This document shows positions 1 through 41,794 of a stretch of 41,927 bases of DNA, piece by piece. The position numbers and the translations under genes are program-made. The DNA is from Bacteroidales bacterium (GTDB lineage: Bacteria > Bacteroidota > Bacteroidia > Bacteroidales > UBA12170), in assembly GCA_021157585.1 (NCBI GenBank), contig JAGGWH010000070.1:1-41927 (forward strand). The letters run 5' to 3'. The notes below the pieces were generated by a model. That model was not told the origin of the DNA, ran no database searches, and saw only the letters and a program-made list of their open reading frames with translations. Positions within the stretch are counted from its first letter, which is position 1; each line of letters starts with the position of its first letter.

Positions 1-51
1 ATTGAAGAAGGAATTGATTTGTATATAAAAATAATGAATGAAATTTTGTAA
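1..51 (+). CDS. C-terminal end of an upstream gene (partial)
   Basis: An open frame enters from the left edge and stops at TAA 49-51, giving a 16-residue tail (IEEGIDLYIKIMNEIL). It ends 11 bases before argH and on the same strand, so the two are probably cotranscribed. The tail resembles the last helix of M20-family deacetylases such as ArgE, which would suit an arginine operon, but so few residues cannot establish identity. Confidence 0.45.
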   Translation: MEEGIDLYIKIMNEIL

Positions 52-35433: not shown

Positions 35434-35889
35434 TTAATATGTATTGTGAGCGTCTATATCATCATCTGCATCCACCCTGTTACCTCCTGATGAAGGATGA
35501 GGTGCATTATGGTCGCGCTGAATAGAACCTATAAGGGCTCCAAGCATTTTGGTTAACTCCATTAAATAATTTCTACTGGTTTCTTCTTGCTCATCGCCAA
35601 AATAATTCAACTTCACAGATGCCGAAGTAAACATAACACTCTGTCGAATGGCAGTTTTAGCTTCTTTCAGATGAAAAATAAACTGAGTTTTATTCTTAGA
35701 TGATCCCTCAGCAATCTTTCCGGGGATATTCATAGCTACATCAACAAAAGAATGAGCCAAAGGATTAGCAGCAGCATTTGGAAACATTTCGGTATTAACT
35801 TGTACCCAGACATAATAATCGAGTGCTTTTTGATATACACGAAGATCCTCAAAACGAAAAAATGAAGGAGAATAATTAGAGTTGTTCAT
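35434..35889 (-). CDS. Four-helix-bundle protein (S23/IVP family)
   Basis: A 151-residue helical protein of the family first found as open frames in 23S rRNA intervening sequences. Diagnostic blocks are FFRFEDLRVYQKALDYYVWV at the start, VDVAMNIPGKIAEGSSKNKTQF, and FIFHLKEAKTAIRQS. The family pattern I-P-x-x-I-A-E-G is present. The biochemical role is not known; stand-alone copies are common in Bacteroidota. It sits between serA and DUF1015 in an otherwise metabolic operon, 28 bases from DUF1015 and 57 from serA, with an unusual Asp-rich tail (RVDADDDIDAHN). Confidence 0.87.
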   Translation of the reverse strand: MNNSNYSPSFFRFEDLRVYQKALDYYVWVQVNTEMFPNAAANPLAHSFVDVAMNIPGKIAEGSSKNKTQFIFHLKEAKTAIRQSVMFTSASVKLNYFGDEQEETSRNYLMELTKMLGALIGSIQRDHNAPHPSSGGNRVDADDDIDAHNTY

Positions 35890-40384: not shown

Positions 40385-40440
40385 ACTTGACAATACAGAA
40401 TGGCCAATGTATCTTTGACCGAACGTTTAGTCAAAAAAAT
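40385..40440 (+). promoter_or_regulatory. tetR promoter with overlapping operator palindrome
   Basis: CTTG (40386-40389) and TATCTTTG (40410-40417) form a -33/-7 pair 20 bases apart. The -7 box overlaps TTGACCGAACGTTTAGTCAA (40415-40434), a 20-base palindrome matching in 16 positions (TTGAC..AACGTT..GTCAA). It lies just ahead of the regulator's ATG at 40441. TetR proteins bind such palindromes, so autorepression is expected. Confidence 0.75.
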
Positions 40441-41023: not shown

Positions 41024-41794
41024 ATGAAGTATAAAATTTATATAGCACTTACAGCTTTTCTAATTTTTCAGTTGGGAGCATTTTCTCAAACCGATGAAAG
41101 AGCCAAAGAAATCGTGCGAAAAGCACAAAGCATTATGCTAGGGAAAAACAGCAGTTCCACCATGACCATGAACATTATCCGGCCCGAATGGAGCCGGTCG
41201 GTTAGCATGCAAACTTGGTCGATGGGAACAGATTATTACATTATTTATGTTACTGCCCCTGCTCGCGACAAAGGACAAGTTTTTCTTAAACGTGAAAAAA
41301 ATATGTGGAACTGGATGCCACGCATTGGGCGTATGATCAAAATTCCGCCCAGCATGATGATGAGTTCTTGGATGGGTTCCGATTTTAATAACGATGAACT
41401 GATGAAAGAAAATTCACTGGTAGTGGATTATACCCACAAAATTGTAGGCGAAGAAACAATTGATGGCTATGCATGTTATAAAATTGAACTCCTTCCACTA
41501 CCTCAAGCACCCGTAGTTTGGAGCAAAGTATTTCTATGGATATCTAAAGAACACGATTTTGCACTTCGCTCCGAACTTTATGGCAAAAACGATGAGTTGG
41601 TTAACCTTCAACTGTCTTCAGAAATAAAAATGATGGATGGACGCCTTTTGCCCTCAAAAATGGTCATGAAACCTGTTCAAAAGCCTGGACATCAAACCGT
41701 ACTTCTCATTGAAAAAATAAATTTTGATGATCCAAAAATAAGCGCAAAAATGTTTTCTCAACAGATGATGAAGCAAATTCGCCCTAACCAATAG
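41024..41794 (+). CDS. LolA-like outer membrane lipoprotein-sorting protein
   Basis: A 256-residue exported protein (signal peptide about 1-21, ending LGAFSQ) of the LolA/LolB-like fold. Family features: RAKEIVRKAQSIMLGKNSSSTMTMNI, SMGTDYYIIYVTAPARDKGQVFLKR, MWNWMPRIGRMIKIPPSMMMSSWMGSDF, and DGYACYKIELLP. Such proteins sit beside FtsX-like ABC permeases and TetR genes in many bacteria and are thought to carry lipids or lipoproteins across the periplasm. It is 4 bases after tetR and 13 before the permease, clearly one operon. A role with its own ABC transporter, rather than general Lol sorting, is more likely (inference). Confidence 0.88.
   Translation: MKYKIYIALTAFLIFQLGAFSQTDERAKEIVRKAQSIMLGKNSSSTMTMNIIRPEWSRSVSMQTWSMGTDYYIIYVTAPARDKGQVFLKREKNMWNWMPRIGRMIKIPPSMMMSSWMGSDFNNDELMKENSLVVDYTHKIVGEETIDGYACYKIELLPLPQAPVVWSKVFLWISKEHDFALRSELYGKNDELVNLQLSSEIKMMDGRLLPSKMVMKPVQKPGHQTVLLIEKINFDDPKISAKMFSQQMMKQIRPNQ

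Follow-up and report, generated by a model that had tools for sequence, protein, structure and literature searches.

The window analyzed here, a 41,927-nucleotide stretch of a Bacteroidales genome (lineage UBA12170; contig JAGGWH010000070.1), closes with a tetR gene followed by a gene for a LolA_like protein and by 120 bases of a first FtsX-type permease gene, at which point the contig ends (Table 1). Between an upstream MscS-like gene and tetR lies the 20-mer TTGACCGAACGTTTAGTCAA, a near-palindrome (8 of 10 pairs are complementary) whose 3′ end is 6 bp from the tetR ATG. It had been proposed, from the sequence alone, as a TetR operator on the regulator's own promoter, and its sequence and coordinates proved to be exact.

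Table 1. Features at the tetR end of the window (positions are those of the window).
Feature	Position	Strand	Basis
-33 element (TTG), tetR promoter	40387..40389	+	sequence; TTG at similar spacing in relatives
-7 box TATCTTTG	40410..40417	+	Bacteroidota consensus TAnnTTTG (PMC7366714, PMC9723704, available text)
Predicted operator of TetR-family regulator, TTGACCGAACGTTTAGTCAA	40415..40434	+	sequence, conservation, co-occurrence with regulator
Predicted transcription start, A; 19-nt leader 40422-40440	40422..40422	+	F. psychrophilum box register (PMC9723704, available text)
tetR, 192 aa, TetR_N PF00440	40441..41019	+	E 6.6e-18
LolA_like protein (PF17131), 256 aa, 4 bp after tetR	41024..41794	+	E 1.5e-52
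First FtsX-type permease gene, 5′ part, 40 codons, cut by contig end	41808..41927	+	90% identity to L032 FtsX1 over that part

According to the available text of two studies, promoters of B. fragilis carry TAnnTTTG at -7 and TTTG near -33 (PMC7366714), and in F. psychrophilum the box spans -12 to -5 (PMC9723704). The box in the window, TATCTTTG, is a perfect match to the Bacteroidota -7 box; the -33 element reads TTG (in the context CTTGAC), which is the consensus TTTG minus its first T, and the spacer from this TTG to the box is 20 nt. As originally predicted, the 20-mer overlaps both the end of the -7 box (by three bases) and the probable start site: if the F. psychrophilum register applies, transcription would begin at an A inside TTGACCGAACGTTTAGTCAA. 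The ATG that had been proposed as the tetR start is better than the start in the open reading frame list, since the latter, a TTG, is itself the -33 element; moreover, the ATG is found at the same position in the three nearest relatives (L003/L032, L004, and L005). The stretch from the MscS-like gene to tetR showed no plus-strand terminator, so that read-through from the MscS-like gene could also feed the operon.

The tetR product belongs to the TetR family (64.7 bits against a cut-off of 24 for TetR_N), and no NCBIfam equivalog model reaches its cut-off for this protein, FadR and BetI both being far below. The best NCBIfam match, FadR (NF053878), covers only the N-terminal half, at 69.3 bits against a cut-off of 200; the best matches among solved structures are TetR-family chains, with 6azh first and the FadR entries 3whb and 3whc next. 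The likeness to Bacillus-type FadR consists in the best NCBIfam match and in the best-scoring solved chains after 6azh, whereas the protein studied here scores far below the FadR cut-off and is linked to an exporter gene set.

We collected relatives of this TetR from 60 genomes and from a contig scan (the best 80 of 118 confirmed stretches). Above 95 bits there were 38 non-duplicate loci, the window included, 37 of them with enough upstream DNA; L001, L003, and L012 were left out as duplicates of L002, L032, and L038, and L035 because its upstream DNA was too short. The closest named relative, L032 (74% TetR identity), has the operon complete, in the order tetR, LolA_like, FtsX, FtsX with MacB_PCD, ABC ATPase, and an outer-membrane-like protein without a Pfam match. 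A LolA_like match is present in 33 of the 37 other loci, in two of which (the Melioribacteraceae loci L040 and L041) it is divergent from tetR; FtsX matches are found in 29 of these 33, and the remaining four loci end early. L018 has FtsX without LolA_like, and L047, L050, and L061 have neither, the L050 locus ending soon after tetR. The recurrence of this gene order in relatives, together with the complete version in L032, bears out the idea that a single operon probably stands behind the site, and the LolA-like/FtsX/ABC gene set makes "export operon" a fair reading of what it may encode. Two loci, L033 and L037, have three FtsX-type permease matches in the operon instead of two.

By itself the near-palindrome would not carry the operator claim: palindromic 20-mers with 8 of 10 pairs number 42 in the window, where 20 dinucleotide shuffles gave 41.4 ± 6.8, which is chance level, and we therefore rejected palindrome strength as evidence. 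Likewise, the promoter pattern TTG-18..21-TAnnTTTG occurs 7 times on both strands of the window, against 5.8 ± 2.1 in 50 shuffles. Neither feature rises above background, so the operator claim needed evidence of another kind.

That evidence comes from the DNA in front of the relatives' tetR genes. Of 36 relatives (from the set that includes the best 80 of the 118 stretches), 30 have, within 250 bp upstream of tetR, a site that differs from the window 20-mer at no more than 5 positions, and the count is 33 of 36 at up to 6 mismatches and 26 of 36 at up to 4; these relatives are not independent, L034/L036 and L046/L048, for example, being close pairs. In 740 dinucleotide-shuffled regions, matches with at most 5 mismatches were found in 0.8%, with at most 6 in 3.8%, and with at most 4 in none; chance is not negligible for the relatives at 5 mismatches (L008, L014, L017, and L048) and at 6 (L010, L046, and L061). 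No site was found within 250 bp upstream in L034, L044, and L047; L044 has one farther away, at 1.24 kb from tetR and about 0.2 kb ahead of the outer-membrane-protein match that precedes tetR there. Among 35 sites (the ten retrieved by DNA pattern not being counted), 28 have TAnnTTTG joined to them at an identical offset, with the window included and with the L044 site having been fetched by a box-containing pattern; in 25 of the 35 upstream sites a TTG precedes the box position by 19-21 nt, and 33 of 35 have A at position 8 of the site, the predicted +1.

Several relatives depart from the single-site arrangement or from perfect symmetry. An asymmetry of the site recurs, with C at position 6 in 22 of 35 sites and A at the partner position 15 in 33 of 35. 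In the two Melioribacteraceae loci (L040:5858-5988 and L041:5861-5986), two sites lie between the divergent tetR and exporter genes, as if there were one per promoter; L038 has two operator copies upstream of tetR; and in L006, L007, and L039 the main copy is preceded, at a distance of 39-40 bp, by another and weaker one (4-6 mismatches) that overlies the -33 region.

The protein side of the presumed contact is similarly conserved. In an alignment of 37 of the 38 loci (the window's included, L048 left out), 30 of the 37 proteins match SKGL(I/L/M)YNYF exactly in the recognition-helix segment. L061 and L047 have SLGL or SQGL at this place; L061 has a TGAATG-type site at 6 mismatches and L047 no matching site. 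This joint variation of helix and site fits a change of specificity in these two cases, the only two of the kind; L046 has the usual helix, yet a variant site.

We also scanned 395 genomes of the class with the DNA pattern TANNTTTGACYRAMCGTTYARTCA, which was derived from the relatives' sites and used no protein input. It matched 11 places, one per genome and the window's included, and the reversed pattern gave zero matches in the same 395 genomes. Each of the 11 places is followed, 1-30 bp after its end, by the aligned first codon of a tetR relative; 10 are new with respect to the earlier loci, and 10 have LolA_like next. At the eleventh (L128:41-1524), the site and a tetR relative are followed by a different ABC ATPase (PF00005), not by LolA-like/FtsX genes; because the cargo differs, the site there accompanies the regulator rather than the LolA-like genes. 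The signal above chance is thus the conserved placement before tetR relatives and the fused pattern that is found only there.

Conservation and co-occurrence with tetR both support the operator that was originally predicted. We put at about 0.9 the probability that TTGACCGAACGTTTAGTCAA is the dedicated operator of the adjacent TetR, giving negative autoregulation of tetR and of the exporter operon. A TetR dimer would bind the near-palindrome of 16-20 bp, in which the TTG of the -7 box makes up the left arm and the predicted start falls in the middle, and the bound dimer would prevent open-complex formation by sigma-A RNA polymerase at the promoter. With tetR heading the operon, repression would amount to autoregulation of tetR together with control of the LolA-like, FtsX, FtsX, ATPase, and outer-membrane genes, which are probably co-transcribed with it. 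An effector, probably an exporter-linked substrate or an envelope signal, would then release TetR.

Among other readings, the one with most left to it, though at only a small fraction of the probability, is that the regulator does bind the site but activates transcription, or alternates between repression and activation. Co-occurrence does not give the sign of regulation, and would be the same in either case; the site, however, takes in the last bases of the -7 box as well as the predicted start, a position suited to blocking polymerase, whereas activators usually bind upstream of the -33 region.

It is still less probable that the site is read by another TetR paralogue or by some other DNA-binding protein. 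The genome does have six further weak TetR-family matches that could supply such a reader, but the distribution of the site follows the adjacent regulator: of the 11 genomes in the genus, the 7 that carry the site are also those with a tetR match (E 2.7e-42 or better), while none of the four genomes without the regulator has it, two of these four being only about 75% complete (the pattern used for the genus had been relaxed once the sites there were known, and its reversed form gave 3 matches across the 11 genomes). A search for other copies of the palindrome, which had been suggested as a way to define the regulon, returned one site in the window's own genome (2.93 Mb, 183 contigs, 95.5% complete): TTGACCGAACGTTTAGTCAA is the sole match with at most 3 mismatches, in the window as in the genome as a whole, the reversed control also giving 1 in the genome, and no second perfect copy was found there, which likewise argues against another reader.

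Two wider uses of the motif were tried and rejected. A regulon beyond the operon was sought with a relaxed pattern (at most 3 mismatches), which gave 10 rows against 10 for the reversed control and is thus background; two of the rows are TTGACCGAACGTTTAGTCAA on both strands, and the 8 others, at 2-3 mismatches, are at loci with no match to the operon proteins. The motif is not a generic TetR motif either, since, of 68 regions taken from upstream of weaker TetR matches (L088 being dropped for too little upstream DNA), only 3 reach 6 mismatches, and one of these 3 (L054) belongs to an apparently truncated relative of the TetR studied here.

That the conserved stretch is only a promoter plus neutral sequence retained by common descent, with the palindrome arising by chance, is very improbable. 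The chance frequencies of palindrome and promoter pattern in the window would agree with it; on the other hand, the spacer between the -33 and -7 elements has diverged among relatives, while the right arm GTTCAGTCA, which is not part of the promoter elements, persists in distant relatives whose upstream genes differ, and the fused pattern stands only before relatives of tetR. Least probable of all is an RNA hairpin in the leader, as an inverted repeat near the expected 5′ end might suggest, since the predicted start lies inside the palindrome, so that the transcript would hold its right part only, and a mismatch at positions 6/15 is common in relatives.

A dedicated operator with negative autoregulation is an ordinary kind of regulation, a common type of switch that is well supported here. 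AcrR and MtrR are TetR/AcrR-family autorepressors of exporter operons, a family to which the protein shows weak matches, and the system described here resembles them in its TetR_N helix-turn-helix, in the near-palindromic predicted operator over the regulator's own promoter, and in the linked exporter genes; it differs in that the operator is fused to the Bacteroidota -7 box, and in that tetR is co-directional with the exporter genes and comes first in the operon. The gene set itself is similar to LolCDE-LolA and MacB-type ABC systems, with two FtsX-type permeases, one ABC ATPase, and a LolA-like periplasmic protein, whereas the operon here has an extra outer-membrane-protein-like gene (no Pfam match) and predicted TetR control.

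Operons of related content have been described in other Bacteroidota. The available text of PMC10434189 reports TetR-MMPL-LolA-like-ABC operons of P. gingivalis and Prevotella intermedia that are strongly raised on iron limitation, with PG1175-PG1181 of P. gingivalis 13.4- to 136.2-fold up on iron depletion, and that of PMC10470040 places the P. gingivalis operon genes among the most under-expressed in excess hemin. These operons share with the one studied here a TetR/AcrR gene that, in the text available, is co-regulated with a gene for an "outer membrane lipoprotein-sorting protein" and with ABC ATPases; they have an MMPL transporter where the present operon has FtsX permeases, and the comparison is one of gene content, not of TetR homology.

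A broader picture, which we offer as tentative, is that the box and operator TAnnTTTGACYRAMCGTTYARTCA and the regulator may form one inherited cassette through Bacteroidota, with related sites in Melioribacteraceae; it might be a single-operon switch that senses an envelope lipid, a lipoprotein, or an iron/heme-linked signal and turns on a Lol-like exporter. No described operator for this TetR regulator or operon was found among the literature matches listed. The site gives a well-defined predicted operator for a widespread TetR-family regulator of Bacteroidota, one that is tied to a LolA-like/FtsX exporter, and with one site per genome it could serve as a simple reporter for finding the effector.

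Elsewhere in the window, at 35434-35889 on the minus strand, a gene for a 23S_rRNA_IVP protein (PF05635, E 1.7e-8) has a larger gene of the same direction on either side, and the gene order around it is the same in L032.
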